This document shows positions 56,606 through 64,000 of a stretch of DNA of 64,000 bases, one piece after another. The stretch is from NCBI RefSeq assembly GCF_001894985.1, contig NZ_BCXG01000023.1, forward strand, positions 1-64,000. The letters are read 5' to 3'. Position 1 is the first letter of the stretch. Each line of letters starts with the position of its first letter. This DNA is from Rhodococcus tukisamuensis NBRC 100609. Lineage in GTDB: Bacteria > Actinomycetota > Actinomycetes > Mycobacteriales > Mycobacteriaceae. The notes under the pieces were generated by a model. That model was not told where the DNA came from. It searched no databases and saw only the letters and a list, made by a program, of their open reading frames with translations. The translations under genes were made by a program, and so were the position numbers.

Positions 56606-56648
56606 CTCGGCCGACCCGTCGTGGTGTCACAGTGACGGATCGGCCGAG
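56606..56648 (-). terminator. Hairpin downstream of parB
   Basis: A 15-bp stem with one mismatch (CTCGGCCGACCCGTC and its partner) and a 13-nt loop. It lies 26 bp after the parB stop on the minus strand. No U-tract is present. Confidence 0.6.
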
Positions 56649-56674: not shown

Positions 56675-57787
56675 CTACGAGCCGCCCTGGTGTTCCATCA
56701 TCTCGACGATCCGCTGCAGGTCGTCCACCGAGCCGAACTCGACGACGATCTTGCCCTTGCGCTTGCCGAGGCTCACCGTGACGCGGGTGTCGAACGCCCC
56801 GGACAGCCGGTCCGCGACGTCCTGGAGGCCCGGCATCTGAATCGGCTTGCGCTTCACCGGGGGAGTGAGCGTGGCGGCATCCTCACGGTTGGCCAGCGTC
56901 ACCGCCTCCTCGGTGGCACGCACCGACATGCCCTCGGCGACGATCCGCGCGGCCAGCAGTTCCTGTGCCTCGGCGCCCGCCTCGAGCGAGAGCAGGGCCC
57001 GGGCGTGGCCGGCGGAGAGCACGCCCGCCGCGACCCGCCGCTGCACCGGGATCGGCAGCCGGAGGAGCCGGATCATGTTGGTCACCACGGGCCGCGAACG
57101 CCCGATCCGGGCGGCCAGCTCCTCGTGGGTGACGTTGAACTCCTCGAGCAGCTGCTGGTACGCCGCCGCCTCCTCGAGCGGGTTCAGCTGCACCCGGTGG
57201 ATGTTCTCGAGCAGTGCGTCGCGCAACATCGAGCCGTCGTTCGTCTCGCGGACGATCGCCGGGATGGTCTCGAGCCCGGCCTGCTGGCTGGCCCGCCACC
57301 GTCGCTCACCCATCACCAGCTGGTAGCGGTCGTCTGCGACGCGGCGCACGACGATCGGCTGCATCAGGCCGAACTCGCGGATCGAGAAGACCAGTTCGGC
57401 GAGCGCCTCCTCGTCGAACACCTGGCGCGGCTGCTTCGGGTTCGGCTCGATCTGCGCGGCCGGGATCTCCCGGTAGATGGCGCCGACGGGGGAGAGGTCG
57501 GGTGCCGACTCCCCGTCGGACGCCGGGGCGGCCTTCGCCGTCTTCGTGGTCTTCGCCGCCGCCGTCTTGGCGGTGGCAGCCTTGGTCGCCGGGGCCTTCG
57601 GCGCCGCACCGTCGACCGGAGCGGGTGCCGGTGCCTTGCCGGTCTTGGTCGCCGCGTCCGCCGGGGCGGGCGCGTTGCCGATGATCACGTCGGCGGCGGC
57701 GCTGCCGAGCCGCGGTCCGGCCTCGGGGCCGGTCGGGATCAGTGCCGCGAGGCCGCGTCCCAGGCCACCCTTGCTTCTCGTGCTCAC
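56675..57787 (-). CDS. parB: Chromosome-partition protein ParB
   Basis: A 370-residue ParB/Spo0J. The CTPase/parS-loading domain has the [12 protein letters not shown] motif (about 160-171). The HTH (about 215-250: [20 protein letters not shown]) reads parS, and a C-terminal dimerisation region ends the protein. An Ala/Lys/Pro-rich linker covers about 30-90. ParB loads at parS, spreads and forms the segregation complex. Perfect and degenerate parS sites lie within 1-6 kb. It overlaps the parA stop by 1 nt. Confidence 0.93.
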
Positions 57788-58776
57788 TACGTCTCCTGCG
57801 CGTTCATCGTGGCGGTGCGGGCTGCGAGTTCGCGGCCGGCGTCGAGGTAACTCATGGCACCGCGTGAGCCCGGGTCGTAGTCGAGGACGGTCATCCCGTA
57901 TCCGGGCGCCTCCGAGACCTTCACGCTGCGGGGGATCACGGCGCGCAGCACCCGGTCACCGAAGTGCTTGCGCACCTCCTCGGCGACCTGGTCGGCCAGC
58001 TTGGTCCGGCCGTCGTACATGGTCAGCAGGACCGTCGAGACATGCAGGTCGGGGTTGAGGTGGGACTGGACCAGCTCGATGTTGCGCAGCAGCTGCCCGA
58101 CGCCCTCGAGTGCGTAGTACTCGCACTGGATGGGGATCAGCACCTCCTGCGCGGCGACCATCGCGTTGACCGTGAGCAGACCCAGCGACGGCGGGCAGTC
58201 GATGAGGATGAAGTCGACGTCGACGCCGGCGAGGGCGGCGGGGGCGAGGGCGGTCTTGAGCCGGCCCTCACGGGCGACCATGGAAACCAGCTCGATCTCG
58301 GCGCCGGCCAGGTCGATGGTCGCGGGGATGCAGTACAGCCGGTCACTGTGCGGGCTCTGCTGGATCGCCTCGGCTGCCGTGACTTCGCCTATGAGCAGCT
58401 CGTAGCTCGAGGGGGTACCCGAGTGATGGGGGACGCCCAGCGCGGTGCTGGCGTTGCCCTGAGGGTCCAAATCGACCACCAGGACGGTCAGGCCGAGGAC
58501 CGCGAGCGAGGACGCGAGGTTCACCGCGGTGGTCGTCTTGCCGACGCCGCCCTTCTGGTTCGCGATGGTGAGGACGCGGCGGCGGTTCGGCCTGGGCATC
58601 GACACCCCGTGCGGGTGCAGGACCTGACTCGCCCGCTGCGCGGCCGCACCGATCGGTGTCTCCTCCAGCGAGATGCCCGAATACGCGGACGCCGGATAGG
58701 GGTTCACACCATCGCCGTTGGTGGGTTTCGAAGGGTCGTGTCCGGTTTCACGTGAAACCGCGGGTCCACCCGACAT
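57787..58776 (-). CDS. parA: Chromosome-partition ATPase ParA
   Basis: A 329-residue ParA/Soj ATPase. The deviant Walker A motif is [14 protein letters not shown] (about 75-88), Walker A' is VVDLDPQGN and Walker B is [10 protein letters not shown]. It forms the nucleoid-bound gradient that moves ParB-parS complexes. AAGGAG precedes the ATG. Its first 70 residues are an extra tail, and a perfect parS site lies within the codons of that tail (58744-58759). It is encoded between rsmG and parB on one strand. Confidence 0.94.
58744..58759. other. Perfect parS site inside parA
   Basis: GGTTTCACGTGAAACC is a perfect palindrome and contains the exact 14-bp parS core GTTTCACGTGAAAC. It lies in the first codons of parA. 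Confidence 0.95.
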
Positions 58777-58840
58777 GTGTTGCTCCTTCACAGATCTTGC
58801 TCGATCACCACGGCGTGAATTCATCGGTTCGACGGGTCCA

Positions 58841-59512
58841 TTATCGGCGATGACCTCGCCGGGGGACGCGTTCCGCGCGAACCACGATCGTCGGTGTCGG
58901 CAGAATCGCGGCGCCGCACTCGACGATCTCCAACTTGCCGGCCCCCAGGCGAGTCAGGGAAGCCTGATCGCGGGAGATCTCTTCCGCCGCACTCGATCCC
59001 TTCATCGCCAGCATCCGGCCGCCCTCGTGCACCAGCGGGATGGACCAGCGGGCAAGCTTCTCCAGCGGCGCGACGGCCCGGGAGGTCACGACGTCGGCGC
59101 CACCGGCCTCGTGCAGGACGCCGGGCTGTTCCGCGCGCCCGCGGACCACGCGGACATCGAGACCGACCTCTTCGATGAACTCGGCCAGGTACACCGAGCG
59201 CCGCAGCAGCGGCTCGACCAACGTGATCCGGAGGTCCGGGCGGGCGATCGCGAGCGGGATGCCGGGCAGGCCGGCCCCGCTGCCCACGTCGACGACGGAC
59301 TCGCCCTCGGCGATCAGCTCACCGATCACGGCGCAGTTGAGCAGGTGCCGGTCCCAGAGTCGGGGGACCTCACGCGGTCCGATCAGGCCCCGCTCCACAC
59401 CCGCCGTGGCGAGCGAGTCGCGGTACTTCACCGCGAGGTCGAGGCGGTCCCCAAAGACGGTCTGAGCGGCCTCGGGCATGTCGTCGGACTCGATGTGTTC
59501 CACGTGAAACAT
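58841..59512 (-). CDS. rsmG: 16S rRNA (guanine527-N7)-methyltransferase RsmG
   Basis: A 223-residue SAM-dependent methyltransferase that modifies G527 of 16S rRNA. The SAM motif is [20 protein letters not shown] (about 73-92), preceded by LWDRHLLNC. The preferred start gives MFHVEH, common in the family; an ATG 21 nt upstream is possible. Neither start has a good ribosome binding site. The first codons coincide with a parS-like sequence. It is upstream of parA by 64 bp. Confidence 0.92.
59497..59510. other. parS-like site in the rsmG start codons
   Basis: GTTCCACGTGAAAC differs from the parS core at one position. On the minus strand it encodes the FHVE part of the RsmG N-terminus. Confidence 0.85.
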
Positions 59513-59877
59513 CTTCCCGTGACGCCGATACATTCCACAAACCAGACGCGCGGAATATTCGGATCCCGATGAATCCGGACCCTGCGGGGTCCGATCAACC
59601 TGACCGAACCGCCGCGTTCCCGGCCATCACCGACCCGGGGGAGGGAGTCGCGGGCCGGGTCGGTTCGGCCGGGAGCCGGATGGCAGGGGGCGTCGGGCGG
59701 TGGGGGAGGGGAGGGGCTGGCCGACTCGCAGAGGTGTCGTCCCGTGCGAGCGGACACCGGCCGCGACCGCCGGTTCGTTGCCGGGCCTCTAGCCGACGCC
59801 GGCACCCCGGTCGACACGCAACCGCCGTTGCGGAAACCCGTGCGGCGGCGGTCGCCGGCGCGGCTCCGCCAGTGGGG

Positions 59878-59924
59878 CCTTGCGGGTGGGCCTTGCGGGT
59901 GGGCCTTGCGGGTGGGCCTTGCGT
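59878..59924. repeat. 13-bp tandem array
   Basis: Three exact copies of CCTTGCGGGTGGG and a partial fourth. Confidence 0.9.
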
Positions 59925-60206
59925 GCACGCGGGTTTCCAACGCCGAGTCGGTACGGCCGCCGGCCCACCACTGCCGCAGGCTCGGTGCTGCGCGCGCGGC
60001 CGGGATGCTGCCGCCGAAGCGCACGGCCGCCAGCCAGTCACCGATGCCGGCAGGCCCGGCCAGCCGGGGGCCGCCCACCCACGAGGCGCCGGCGCGGGAT
60101 CGGGGCGGAGGCAGGTGAGGTGCCGCACGCGGGCGCTCCCACATCGGACGCCGAGGCCCTTGGAGGAGCGCACGCCGAGCGGTGCACGACTGCGACGCCT
60201 CTCGAA

Positions 60207-60242
60207 CACGAAGTCCACAGCACGCACGAAGTCCACAGCACG
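60207..60242. repeat. Two exact 18-bp tandem units
   Basis: CACGAAGTCCACAGCACG occurs twice in tandem. Each contains AAGTCCACA, which matches a DnaA box (TTGTCCACA) at 7 of 9 positions. Confidence 0.9.
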
Positions 60243-60483
60243 AAGGCCCGCGAGGGTTCGGAGCCGCCGGAGCACAAGTGGCGTCACACGCGGGTCGAGC
60301 ATCAGTGCGGCCGCGACAACGCGAGCCACCACGTCCGCCCGCCCCCGGCCAACGCGCGGCACCCCGCCGAAATGGGATGGGCCGGACCCGCACCCACTCA
60401 TCCAATGCCGTCCGTCGTCGCGAACGGACCCGACTCGGAGGCCGGGCGCCGGCCCGAGAGACGACCCGCCCGCGGGATGGATC

Positions 60484-60517
60484 CAGTCCCGCCGATGGCA
60501 CAGTCCCGCCGATGGCG
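60484..60517. repeat. 17-bp tandem duplication
   Basis: CAGTCCCGCCGATGGCA is followed directly by a copy with one change (final G). Confidence 0.85.
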
Positions 60518-60891
60518 CAGCCGCGCCGCCCCGTCGGGGGGAGCGTCCACCCTGCCGGTTCACCGCGGCCGGGCCGGCCGCGAAGGTCGGACGACCGGTC
60601 GCCCGATCGCGGCCGGAGGAGCATCCCGCGGGCGTCGGGCACCGAACCTGAGATCCGCCTGCCCGTGCGCCACGGCGTGGACGAGCGCTGCAAGCTCGCC
60701 GGATCAGCAGCAGGCGGGACTACGCCCAGCAGTTCGTCGCTGCCGGCGGCCGGACTGAGCGAGTCCGAGCGACCCACCTCACGGATGGGTGCCTCACCGC
60801 GCCAGGGGCTTCCACCGGCGCGAGATGAAGGCGTGACGACGCCGGGCGGCGCGTGGTGCACCCGCGTGTGGGCGCGACCCCCGCGGGTCGT

Positions 60892-60905
60892 GTTTCACGT
60901 GGAAC
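60892..60905. other. parS-like site 3
   Basis: GTTTCACGTGGAAC matches the parS core at 13 of 14 positions. Confidence 0.85.
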
Positions 60906-61486
60906 CGGCCCGGCAGCATCGCCCGGCAAGGGCGGGGAACACAGTGCCGATTGGGCCGCTCCGACAGCGGTCGCCGTTGTCGACGGATCCGTACGCGCCG
61001 CGGCCTGGGCCAGGTGCTGCCCCGGGCTTCCTCGCGCCGGTCGATACCAGGGAGCCGGTGCGCGTCGATCCCGTTTTCTGAAGCCGGCGCCGACCAGGGC
61101 ACGACCCGACGGCCGCCGAGGAAGGCGCCGCGAGGACGCCCAGGCGGGTGCCGGGCGGTTCCCGCGGAGGGCCGGCTGCAGTGTGCGCGACCAACCCCCG
61201 GCTTCCCGCCCGACGCAATGCCCACGACGACAGGCGGGGTGCGGACGGCTGGCCCGGGAACCCGATGCGCCTGGCGTCGATGCCGGCGACGACCACTCCT
61301 CGCATGCGCCCCGCCGCCGCTGCCGGGCTTCGGGCTCGCCCCGATCACTCGAATGGGACTCCACCCGGACGGGCTGCCGCGGATTCGACACCTCTCCCTC
61401 GTCTGGCCGACGGGGACCCACCGGCTTCGGAGCGGCGACTGTGCCGGGACGGTCGGCAAGCTCCCTCGGCAGCGGGCGCCCGTGGT

Positions 61487-61514
61487 GGGGGAGGGGAGTG
61501 GCACGCCGGTCCGG
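61487..61514. repeat. 28-bp direct repeat, copy 1
   Basis: Begins GGGGGAGGGGAGTGG and ends CGGTCCGG. An identical copy lies at 63376-63403. A truncated relative of its first 12 bp lies near 59702. Confidence 0.9.
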
Positions 61515-61618
61515 CGGGCTCGGCTCAGCCGACGTGTCCCACGATCGGGACCGGGGAGTGCGACGAGCGCCCCATGTCGTGGGCGTCGGCCCGGCCGGTC
61601 GCGATGTCACCGCCGGCG

Positions 61619-61632
61619 CGGACACGTGAAAC
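61619..61632. other. parS half-site
   Basis: CACGTGAAAC (61623-61632) is an intact right half; the left arm is altered, giving 10 of 14 matches. Binding is doubtful. Confidence 0.4.
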
Positions 61633-61952
61633 AACACCCGTGAAGGCTCGGTGTCCCGCGCCAGGTCGACGGCACGGCCTCGGGCAGCGCCCCGAATCCG
61701 CGGGTGTCTCAGGCGGGGCCCGGACGCCGACCCCGAGCACCGAACATTTCAGGGCCCGCGTCGTGGGTCGCCCCGAGCACGTCCCTCAGATCGCGTGCAG
61801 CGGACATGCCTCGGCGTGGGCCCGCCGCACGCCCGTTGCAGCATCGGTTCCGCTCAGGTCCACCAAAGATGACCAAGCCAACCCCTGTGGCGTCGCCCGT
61901 CTGGCCGTCAGCAGCCGTAGCCCACGCACCACCCGCCAGACGTCCACCCGAC

Positions 61953-62005
61953 TGACCGAATGCGACATTCGTTCACTTGAACCGAACGAATGTCGCATTC
62001 GGTCA
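61953..62005. repeat. Perfect 22-bp inverted repeat with internal palindromes
   Basis: Two exact 22-bp arms (61953-61974, 61984-62005) flank a 9-nt loop. Each arm itself holds CGAATG-N3-CATTCG, so there are four related half-sites. It is AT-richer than its surroundings and lies 28 bp from a parS-like site. Confidence 0.92.
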
Positions 62006-62032
62006 CACGGCGGGGGCGATCCGCACGGAGCC

Positions 62033-62046
62033 GATTCACGTGAAAC
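62033..62046. other. parS-like site 5
   Basis: GATTCACGTGAAAC matches the parS core at 13 of 14 positions. Confidence 0.85.
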
Positions 62047-62184
62047 ATCACATCGACAGCCACCATGCCTCACCACAGACAGCGGTCTCGATGCATGGCA
62101 CGCGGGTGCCGGCCGACTCCCGTGGTCGCGGGTTCGACAGAGGGTCGCGAACGCTTCGACCGCCTGGTGGCACCCGAAGTAGGT

Positions 62185-62198
62185 GCTTCACGTGAAAC
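62185..62198. other. parS-like site 6
   Basis: GCTTCACGTGAAAC matches the parS core at 13 of 14 positions. It is 152 bp from site 5. Confidence 0.85.
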
Positions 62199-62584
62199 AT
62201 GCCGCAGAACCGTCCATCAATCAGGGTTCCGACCTCCTCGACCGGTCAGAGCCGAACCCCGTGGGTGCCCGGACCCGCCGACGGACCTCGACCGAATCAC
62301 GCGCGCCGGCCGCGGCAGTTCCGGCCAACCGCACGGGCCTCGAATGCAATCGGAGCGGGCCGGCACACCGTCGTGCACACCCCGGACGGCGAGGCGCATT
62401 CGAGTGCGACACCTCCGGGAGGGCGGCGCGAGGATCCGCTTGCCCTCAGGCCTCCCGACTCGTCACCGGAGAACAGGCCGCCGCCAACCCGGTGGCGTCG
62501 ATGCCATCAGCTCCGTGCACCACGAATCCGGGACACCGCGCTTGCCGCCCCGCGATGCGGGCGACCAACCCAACGACCGCGGAC

Positions 62585-62750
62585 GGCGTGCGGGGCTCGG
62601 CATTCCGAGATCGACTGGAACCCGACACCCGGCAGACGGCCGACGCCGGGGCAGTCCGCCGACGCTCGCGGAGGGCGTGCGGAGCCCGGCATCCCGAGAT
62701 CGACTGGAACCCGGCAGACGGCCGACGCCGGGGCGGCCCGCCGACGCTCA
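62585..62750. repeat. Approximately 89-bp tandem duplication
   Basis: Two adjacent copies begin GGCGTGCGG at 62585 and at 62674. They share GAGATCGACTGGAACCCG and GACGGCCGACGCCGGGGC. Copy 1 has a 7-bp insertion and a few substitutions, so the duplication is not very recent. Confidence 0.85.
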
Positions 62751-62906
62751 CCGGGCGGACGGATCGCACGGCAGACGGCGACACCCCTACGCGAACCCGG
62801 GGGAACGGCATCGCCTCACCCCCGCGCGATCCACCCCCGCGGGATCCCACCCCGGTGCGTCGTTCGGACCGGGGGTCACCGCCCCGACAGGACCGACGGC
62901 ACCCGG

Positions 62907-62920
62907 GTTCCACGTGAAAC
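62907..62920. other. parS-like site 7
   Basis: GTTCCACGTGAAAC, the same 13/14 variant as the rsmG site. Confidence 0.85.
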
Positions 62921-63375
62921 AGCTCAGCCATGAGACGGGGAGCGAACCCGGGGAGCCGGAACAAATTCGGCGCCAAAGCGGAATTTCGACGGCGGATTTC
63001 ATGCACCCCGCCACCCCCGGGAGTTTCGTCACGGTGACGGGTGACGAAATGGGGCCGACGCGAGCGAGTAGGCCCATCGGTGTCCGGAGTCCCGCCGACA
63101 GTGCGGCCGGGGTCCGCCTCCCAGCGGCGCCCGGATCCCGGAACCTACGCGGGGTACGGCGGCGGTGCCACGGCAGTCGGATCTGGGCGCACGACTCGAC
63201 CGTCACGCCGCGGGCGGCCGTGCTCGAACGCCGGGCACGACCGGGGTGGCGCGCGATGCGCGTCCGACGCAATCTGCATCCGGATGGCCGGCCACGGCGA
63301 GGTGTGTACCAATCGGCGACCGGCGCCGTGACCCGTCGGTGGGTCAGGTCGGGTCGCCGGGGTCCGGTCGACGGC

Positions 63376-63403
63376 GGGGGAGGGGAGTGGCACGCCGGTC
63401 CGG
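63376..63403. repeat. 28-bp direct repeat, copy 2
   Basis: Identical to 61487-61514. The two copies are 1.9 kb apart and enclose the inverted repeat and three parS-like sites. Confidence 0.9.
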
Positions 63404-63448
63404 TGAGCTGAGGGCGCCCAGCCGGAACGGTGGGGCGGACCTGGAAAC

Positions 63449-63484
63449 GAGAAGGCCCCCAACCGAAAGGTTGGGGGCCTTCTC
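63449..63484. terminator. Terminator of the jag operon
   Basis: A perfect 16-bp stem closed by a GAAA tetraloop, 31 bp after the jag stop. It would end the transcript that includes jag. Confidence 0.9.
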
Positions 63485-63515
63485 ACGACTCCGCACGGAA
63501 GGTGCGGCACTCGGG

Positions 63516-64000
63516 TCAGTCCTTCAGGACCACCACGCGGCGCGACGGCTCCGCGCCCTCGCTCTCGCTGGAGACGCCGTCGATCTTCGCGACCGCGTCG
63601 TGCACGATCTTGCGCTCGAACGGCGTCATCGGGGTGAGCGACTCCGGCTCGCCGGACTCGAGCACCCGCTTCGCCGCGGCCACGCCGATCTCGGTGAGCT
63701 CTGCACGCCGACCCGCGCGCCAGCCGGCCACGTCGAGCATCAGCCGACTGCGCTCGCCGGTCGCCTGCTGCACCGCCAGCCGGGTCAGTTCCTGGAGCGC
63801 GTCGAGCACCTCGCCCTTGCGGCCGACGAGCTTCGCGAGGTCCTCGCCGCCGTCGATGCTGACGACCGCGCGGTCGCCCTCGACATCGAGGTCGATGTCG
63901 CCGTCGAAGTCCAGCACGTCGAGCAACTGCTCGAGGTAGTCGCCGGCGATCTCGCCCTCTTCGATCAGCGCGTCCTCGGGATCCAAGTCGTCAGCCTCGG
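63516..64000 (-). CDS. jag: Jag family RNA-binding protein (partial, 5' end outside window)
   Basis: The C-terminal 160 or so residues of Jag/KhpB. A KH-type domain (LVGRKGEVLDALQELTRLAV) is followed by the R3H domain with MTPFERKIVHDAV. The reading stays open to the window edge, so the N-terminus is missing; an internal TTG at 63986 is not taken as the start. Jag is normally co-transcribed with yidC, rnpA and rpmH next to dnaA. It acts with KhpA in RNA-based control of cell elongation. Confidence 0.9.
   Translation of the reverse strand, partial: EADDLDPEDALIEEGEIAGDYLEQLLDVLDFDGDIDLDVEGDRAVVSIDGGEDLAKLVGRKGEVLDALQELTRLAVQQATGERSRLMLDVAGWRAGRRAELTEIGVAAAKRVLESGEPESLTPMTPFERKIVHDAVAKIDGVSSESEGAEPSRRVVVLKD

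Follow-up and report, generated by a model that had tools for sequence, protein, structure and literature searches.

The 64,000 bp of Rhodococcus tukisamuensis DNA considered here (the window) form the first part of contig C23 (83,005 bp) of assembly G000 (5.49 Mb). The stretch probably holds the centromere of the chromosome, a cluster of parS sites in about 4 kb of gene-free, drifting DNA beside parAB and a few kb from dnaA. The locus belongs with the known ParABS centromeres, as an unusual version rather than a new machine, and sequence comparison indicates that it is one example of a gene-poor parS domain that recurs beside parAB in Rhodococcus and Nocardia. The direct basis of this reading consists of the sites, the absence of genes in the R. 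tukisamuensis gap, the drift of the spacer, the conservation of sites and the recurrence of the domain in relatives, and a correlation between interval length and site number. The elements of the cluster, none of which is assigned to a strand, are listed below.

59534 to 63515: gene-free spacer between rsmG and jag with four full parS sites and a half-site; no 3-base periodicity, no Pfam or Rfam match
58745 to 58758: perfect parS GTTTCACGTGAAAC within parA, 0 mismatches
59497 to 59510: parS with 1 mismatch (GTTCC arm) in the 5′ end of rsmG, from the core scan
60892 to 60905: parS GTTTCACGTGGAAC, 1 mismatch (GTTCC arm), from the core scan
61623 to 61632: half parS CACGTGAAAC, repeat family D3
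62033 to 62046: parS GATTCACGTGAAAC, 1 mismatch at position 2, the commonest spelling of the genus, from the core scan
62185 to 62198: parS GCTTCACGTGAAAC, 1 mismatch at position 2, from the core scan
62907 to 62920: parS GTTCCACGTGAAAC, 1 mismatch (GTTCC arm), from the core scan

The parS core was taken as the 14-mer GTTTCACGTGAAAC, and a 16-mer form was scanned as well. With up to 3 mismatches allowed, the core scan finds 6 sites in the 64-kb window against 1.02 expected, a number reached in 0 of 100 shuffles, and the 16-mer scan finds 6 matches against 0.04 expected from shuffles. No core site with 2 or 3 mismatches is present in the window. Matches to the parS palindrome are thus in excess of chance, as expected of a ParABS centromere. 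From first to last, at 58745-62920, the seven elements fall within 4.2 kb. An earlier sequence-only reading had counted five sites matching at 13 of 14 positions, a half-site and a perfect parS in parA within that distance; the count is confirmed, and shuffled sequences almost never produce it. In the rest of the assembly only two both-direction matches within one mismatch were found, C6:8057 and C18:81876. These are GTTCC-type parS-like sequences with one mismatch each (confirmed in the surrounding stretches), and they lie away from the par locus. The parS at the start of rsmG is present in most of the loci compared.

On the minus strand the gene order is jag, a 3,982-bp gap, rsmG, parA and parB, with the following coordinates.

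56675 to 57787, minus strand: parB with ParB_N, HTH_ParB and ParB_C (open reading frame and Pfam)
57787 to 58824, minus strand: parA (open reading frame and Pfam)
58841 to 59533, minus strand: rsmG (GidB) (open reading frame and Pfam)
63516 to 64000, minus strand: jag/khpB with KH and R3H domains, continuing beyond the window end (open reading frame and Pfam)

The ParB protein is complete by Pfam, with the N-terminal domain, the helix-turn-helix (HTH) and the C-terminal dimer domain expected of a ParABS system. The parS cluster adjoins parAB and is near a dnaA-like open reading frame (ORF), identified by eye, that starts about 2.7 kb past the window end on the same contig; such a location is again that of a ParABS centromere.

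The gap itself gives no sign of coding. The guanine-plus-cytosine (GC) phase spread in 300-bp blocks has a mean of 0.076 over 36 blocks of the gap, against 0.377 over 601 blocks outside it, and no low-periodicity run of the window is longer than the one in the gap. Hidden genes were considered and rejected, as codon periodicity is absent and none of the ten long ORFs overlapping the gap has a Pfam family at E<=0.001, one match having an insignificant E of 0.098. An Rfam search of 58700-64000 returned 0 matches at E<=1, and no structured non-coding RNA is indicated there. The sequence-only reading had described about 4 kb without a recognisable gene between rsmG and jag. This is upheld at 3,982 bp by the negative periodicity, Pfam and Rfam results, with one correction: the start it gave, 59497, lies inside rsmG in the longest-ORF annotation, and the gap proper starts at 59534.

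Of 80 loci from relatives, 75 allowed the jag-parA interval to be sized; in the remaining five rsmG or parA was missing from the stretch. Most Rhodococcus have the enlargement between jag and rsmG (0.9-5.2 kb, 2-7 sites); in the ruber group and in Nocardia it lies between rsmG and parA, and the sites are located there too. It is absent in Aldersonia, trifolii, rhodnii and Leaf247. With gene ends extended and rsmG copies masked, 32/35 Rhodococcus/Prescottella loci and 29/38 Nocardia loci have one or more parS in an interval of 500 bp or longer. Sixty loci from 28 further genera of the family and G001 add several genera with enlarged site-bearing intervals and many in which the interval is short, mostly below 300 bp. 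On a ParA+ParB tree (129 loci, FastTree, many weak nodes), the enlarged intervals fall on several separated branches. Interval length and site number are correlated (rho 0.80, 127 loci, rsmG copies masked). Intervals of up to 450 bp (44 loci) have a mean of 0.43 sites, and 28 of them are without any; those of 450-1000 bp (21 loci) have a mean of 2.76. Above 1 kb the mean is 3.87 sites for 62 loci, 61 of which have a site and 59 two or more.

Conservation was compared in 12 close pairs of relatives. In these, 30 of 38 parS show no change at any of the 14 bases. Identity over aligned columns is 65-95% for the spacer, and identity at fourfold sites of the neighbouring genes is 53-84%; in 5 of the 12 pairs the spacer has the lower value. 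Judged from these alignments, parS sites are well kept and spacer letters poorly kept, and an exactly neutral rate is not claimed for the spacer. The sites thus appear to be conserved by selection in the relatives; the R. tukisamuensis gap has no relative close enough to align. Its own genus is represented by six genomes of the comparison set, including Rhodococcus oryzae (L009), R. sp. RD6.2 (L010) and R. spelaei (L011). The identity of the gap to L011 and L009 (69% and 63%) is the alignment floor, these comparisons were set aside as unalignable, and 0/4 of its gap sites are kept at all 14 positions in either. A BLASTN search of the R. tukisamuensis region against seven relatives and G005 gives the same picture. 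In four genus-mates (G005, L009-L011) the flanks align, with jag 85-88% and the rsmG-parA stretch 77-84% identical, and the gap matches nothing in them except two 22-26 bp stretches in L010 (a G-rich repeat, 59697-59723). The expanded parS platform proposed by the sequence-only reading gains from the comparison of gaps across relatives, since it recurs there and the sites seem to outlast the spacer in close pairs.

Spellings were counted for those gap sites that differ from the parS core at no more than one position. Perfect sites make up 62/65 in the fascians group, 17/19 in the ruber group, 2/8 in Prescottella and 18/25 in the jostii/opacus group, where the other 7 are GTTCC. The own genus has 3/29 perfect and 19 GATTC. 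G001, in which the contig stops inside the gap, adds 7 GATTC and 1 perfect site. The R. tukisamuensis gap is less uniform than its genus, with two GTTCC, one GATTC and one GCTTC. In Nocardia 1/100 is perfect, 45 are GTTTCACATGAAAC and 29 are GTTTCACGGGAAAC; by number of mismatches, Nocardia gap sites divide into 99 with one, 1 perfect and 3 with two. Perfect clusters, 49/52 in the fascians group and 3/28 in the own genus, differ at p ~2.5e-14, with kinship handled by orthologue collapsing alone. The information profile has one strong arm, extended to GTGAAACAT; beside the altered arm, own-genus sites are close to random. After orthologous sites are collapsed, 25/33 own-genus clusters have exactly one mismatch, and the asymmetric sites have no orientation bias (38 to 35 in Nocardia clusters, 10 to 15 in the own genus). 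That sites were copied together with their flanks was rejected, as flank identity inside a genome is close to random in the own genus (0.305 against 0.292) and slightly above it in Nocardia (0.347 against 0.275).

The spelling is clade-specific although the HTH of ParB, near-identical across clades, hardly varies. A change of ParB specificity behind the spelling was considered and rejected. Among 77 ParB sequences three columns have a fixed difference that separates Nocardia from the fascians/ruber groups. Two of them are at the extreme N-terminus and one (position 267 of the R. tukisamuensis protein) is in an ALLxLEAG stretch. Position 267 is past the recognition helix, within the Pfam HTH_ParB span, and there the own genus carries the fascians letter.

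In a centromere of this type, ParB dimers would bind each parS site, and bound ParB would close as a cytidine triphosphate (CTP)-dependent clamp that slides into DNA crossed by no gene. The sliding clamps would build a dense ParB patch, which would be pulled by ParA and would load SMC. Selection would act on the number and rough strength of parS, and perhaps on total length, with the spacer letters left free. We infer ParB binding and clamp sliding at the sites, and likewise that the absence of transcription matters.

Several observations weigh against the centromere reading. One interval of 1.8 kb, in L142, is without any site, and 44 of the 127 loci do with 450 bp or less. A longer interval also offers more room for history, and the correlation of length with site number need not mean that a spacer is required; the loci compared are related and not independent. 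The description "gene-free" is not universal among the intervals of relatives, because coding-like blocks are present in Prescottella, in the majority of the jostii group and in some Nocardia. These blocks are strong in L019 and L020; L016, the majority of the jostii group and a few Nocardia have them in part. Such blocks are absent from 4/5 own-genus gaps (6% of blocks in L009) and from 12/13 fascians-group gaps. In 7 of the 12 close pairs the aligned columns of the spacer are more identical than the fourfold sites. The alignments are global, with exact 14-mers that attract the aligner, and L081 is used in two of the 12 pairs; two pairs (65%) and a third (68%) are inside the 63-69% floor of unrelated gaps. 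A rival reading is a passive spacer, that is, harmless intergenic DNA grown by insertion, in which each parS is selected singly and the absence of genes has no role. This is a serious competitor, though it falls somewhat short of an even chance. The unconserved spacer letters, the short interval in rhodnii, trifolii, Leaf247 and Aldersonia, the dispersed palindrome repeat inside the R. tukisamuensis gap and the site-free L142 interval would all be expected of it. However, intervals above 1 kb recur on several separated branches, with sites in 61 of 62, and the sites follow the enlargement where it lies between rsmG and parA, in Nocardia and the ruber group. It is very unlikely that the gap encodes an unrecognised conserved small protein or RNA: coding-like blocks do occur in the intervals of several relatives, and L076 and L082 share 624 bp at 68%, but the R. 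tukisamuensis gap is without periodicity, Pfam or Rfam match, or such similarity to a genus-mate. Least probable of all is that the gap belongs to the replication origin or is left over from a mobile element. A dnaA-like gene is close and a dispersed palindrome lies at 61948-62010, but the number of DnaA boxes (TT[AG]TCCACA) in the gap is 0, which does not agree with the box cluster of an oriC; the boxes, at 66493, 66504 and 68963, are all outside it, and 0/10 ORFs have a Pfam family.

The sequence-only reading had further supposed that the sites are deliberately weakened so as to tune loading. Put more generally, that the own genus and Nocardia keep sites with one perfect and one altered arm to limit ParB/SMC loading where sites are crowded, this is an unlikely explanation, although part of the evidence points its way. 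After orthologous sites are collapsed, exactly one mismatch is found in 73/76 Nocardia clusters. Pairs of sites within a Nocardia genome agree in spelling at 0.585, against 0.294 when shuffled (0/2000 shuffles as high), and the HTH facing them is nearly invariant. As a null, each observed one-mismatch letter was taken as equal to the perfect site; this null is crude, with equal weight per observed letter, and predicts perfect sites at 1 in 9 in the own genus and 1 in 11 in Nocardia. Perfect Nocardia clusters, at 1/74, are fewer than the null (p 0.007), so that perfect sites may be disfavoured in that genus. In the own genus 3/28 are perfect (p 0.62), which matches the null, and tolerance therefore suffices for the window; an excess of within-genome spelling agreement is not found there (560/2000 shuffles). 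Three of the five imperfect sites bear GTTCC, an ordinary parS arm, which is also the arm of perfect palindromes in Pseudomonas aeruginosa (PMC4368675), where single-mismatch sites bind only slightly less well (PMC4368675). The position-2 variants at 62033 and 62185 correspond to the house spelling of the genus (19/29 GATTC). Similarly clustered gaps in the fascians group have 62/65 perfect sites. In Bacillus subtilis Smc collisions are more readily avoided when strong parS are clustered (PMC8357415), so that a tight cluster should not need weakening. The supposed weakening is thus not established: tuning has little support in the own genus and some in Nocardia. More doubtful still is a bacterial analogue of fast-evolving centromeres. 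In it, a transcription-free domain, constant in place and function though not in sequence, would be kept open for sliding ParB clamps; one-altered-arm sites, with the letter chosen by the lineage under a constant ParB reading head, would hold loading within a band; and a palindrome, CGTCACTGTGACG, that brackets the par operon would mark an undescribed partner factor.

Placed beside known systems, as described in the portions of the cited reports drawn on here, the putative centromere has partial counterparts. Corynebacterium glutamicum has ten identical parS, nine of them intergenic, in a 35-kb region 73 kb from oriC (Nat Commun 2020, PMC7083940). As here, many parS lie on one side of oriC, mostly intergenic in that species, where ParB nucleation zones load SMC; in contrast, the R. 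tukisamuensis locus has 4 full gap sites (4-7 in the genus) in one interval beside parAB, and spellings are clade-specific. M. bovis BCG and M. smegmatis have one parS at gidB and a second in parA (BMC Microbiol 2008, PMC2346475). The window sites at 59497 (rsmG) and 58745 (parA) are in the corresponding places; in R. tukisamuensis they are joined by four full sites and a half-site within 4 kb. P. aeruginosa has ten graded parS along the chromosome, eight in the ori domain, ranked by intact arms, and one intact arm binds better than two altered ones (PMC4368675). Its ParB binds half-sites, of which GTTCCAC and GTTTCAC are the two main ones (PMC10419367). A hierarchy of sites is common to both, whereas one-mismatch sites form the compact main cluster here. 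B. subtilis has eight parS of unequal strength over about 0.75 Mb, with the strong ones preferentially clustered near the origin; distant strong parS lead to the Smc collisions that clustering avoids (eLife 2021, PMC8357415). Several parS of unequal strength are thus shared with B. subtilis, unlike the gene-free domain, none being mentioned in the portion of that report drawn on here. Hydrolysis-defective ParB over-spreads asymmetrically, and the limit to this is putatively head-on transcription or replication (PMC8494293). Among the matches listed for literature on Rhodococcus/Nocardia parS, the jag-gidB region and parS variants, judged by titles and starts of abstracts, no description of the gap was found.

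This branch of the family offers natural experiments, in that sister lineages occur with and without the domain and the domain lies on either side of rsmG. Near-identical ParB HTHs face perfect, GATTC, GTTTCACATG or GTTCC sites, which is a natural comparison in itself. Two questions are made testable, whether transcription limits ParB spreading in nature and how strict the parS palindrome has to be.

A second conserved palindrome, CGTCACTGTGACG, is found in the gap and just downstream of parB; its family consensus is TTTCGTCACTGTGACGAAA. Its two copies in the window, without assigned strand, are these.

63024 to 63039: gap copy, TTTCGTCACGGTGACG, three mismatches from the 19-bp form (word and motif scan)
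56624 to 56640: copy just after parB (motif scan)

With parS masked, the word GTCACTGTGA occurs in 21/24 Rhodococcus gaps against a mean of 0.0 in three simulated sets. The 19-bp form, at up to 5 mismatches, gives 61 matches over all gaps against 2 for reversed controls, usually one per gap. The palindrome core (at most 1 mismatch) is found in the roughly 150 bp that follow parB in 107/130 loci, against 42/2,840 random windows. Since a one-mismatch core by itself could be due to chance in a long gap, the claim for the gaps rests on the longer palindrome forms. BLASTN outside the genus likewise gives a 41-bp match at 62997-63037, over this palindrome, in L012 and L018. Exact CGTCACNGTGACG occurs in 4, 6, 4 and 8 places in four genomes of the genus, par-locus copies included, against 1, 0, 1 and 0 for the reversed control. 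A regulon was considered and rejected: 12 other exact copies were fetched, and the scanned neighbours of six of them are unrelated, namely an alpha/beta hydrolase twice (in orthologous places), a nonribosomal peptide synthetase, a ZIP transporter, a flavin adenine dinucleotide (FAD) enzyme with a branched-chain ATP-binding cassette (ABC) transporter, and one without family. An MtrA site, which would have direct GTCAC-type repeats in regulatory DNA, was considered for the palindrome, where GTCAC and GTGAC form an inverted pair; the portion of the MtrA literature drawn on describes a GTCACAgcg motif and direct repeats. Among the matches listed for literature on the palindrome and on Rv3916c/cwlM, nothing relevant was found by title. 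The palindrome offers a way towards a possible new factor of the par locus in the family as a whole.

Prescottella equi and P. subtropica have a copy of rsmG at either end of the gap (L016 10559 and 13509; L019 10529 and 14045), and so does G014 (L109). Nucleotide identity between the two copies is 95% in L016 and 87% in L019; the copies pair within species in the rsmG tree, and the sequences suggest gene conversion or repeated duplication. The duplicated state is a plausible intermediate between the two placements of the interval. In L020 a second rsmG copy seems to be in pieces, in different frames.

Other features of the gap include the following hairpin.

63449 to 63484, no strand assigned: terminator-like hairpin with a 16-bp stem directly after jag (inverted-repeat pair)

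A stem of at least 9 bp after jag is found in 20/36 loci with a jag-rsmG gap, 23/59 with a rsmG-parA gap and 13/32 with neither, against 3/142 random windows. Terminator insulation as a trait of the gap was rejected, as the three classes differ weakly.

The palindrome at 61948-62010 consists of two 27-nt arms, near-perfect inverted repeats of each other, that are 9 nt apart. The element is dispersed: among the 40 of 274 candidates that were scored, at least 8 further places were located, on 6 other contigs of this genome. A G-rich repeat, GGTGGGGGAGGGGAG..., is present in three copies (59699-59735, 61484-61520 and 63373-63409) spaced by about 1.8 kb; words of the CCCCTCCCCC type are seen in 11/24 Rhodococcus gaps, and this repeat is the sole stretch of the R. 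tukisamuensis gap matched in a genus-mate (L010). In Nocardia, the word AGCTTGCCAG occurs in 33/34 longer jag-parA intervals (e.g. L025, L062) against a mean of 0.3 in simulated sets, and is perhaps a promoter element of rsmG or parA.

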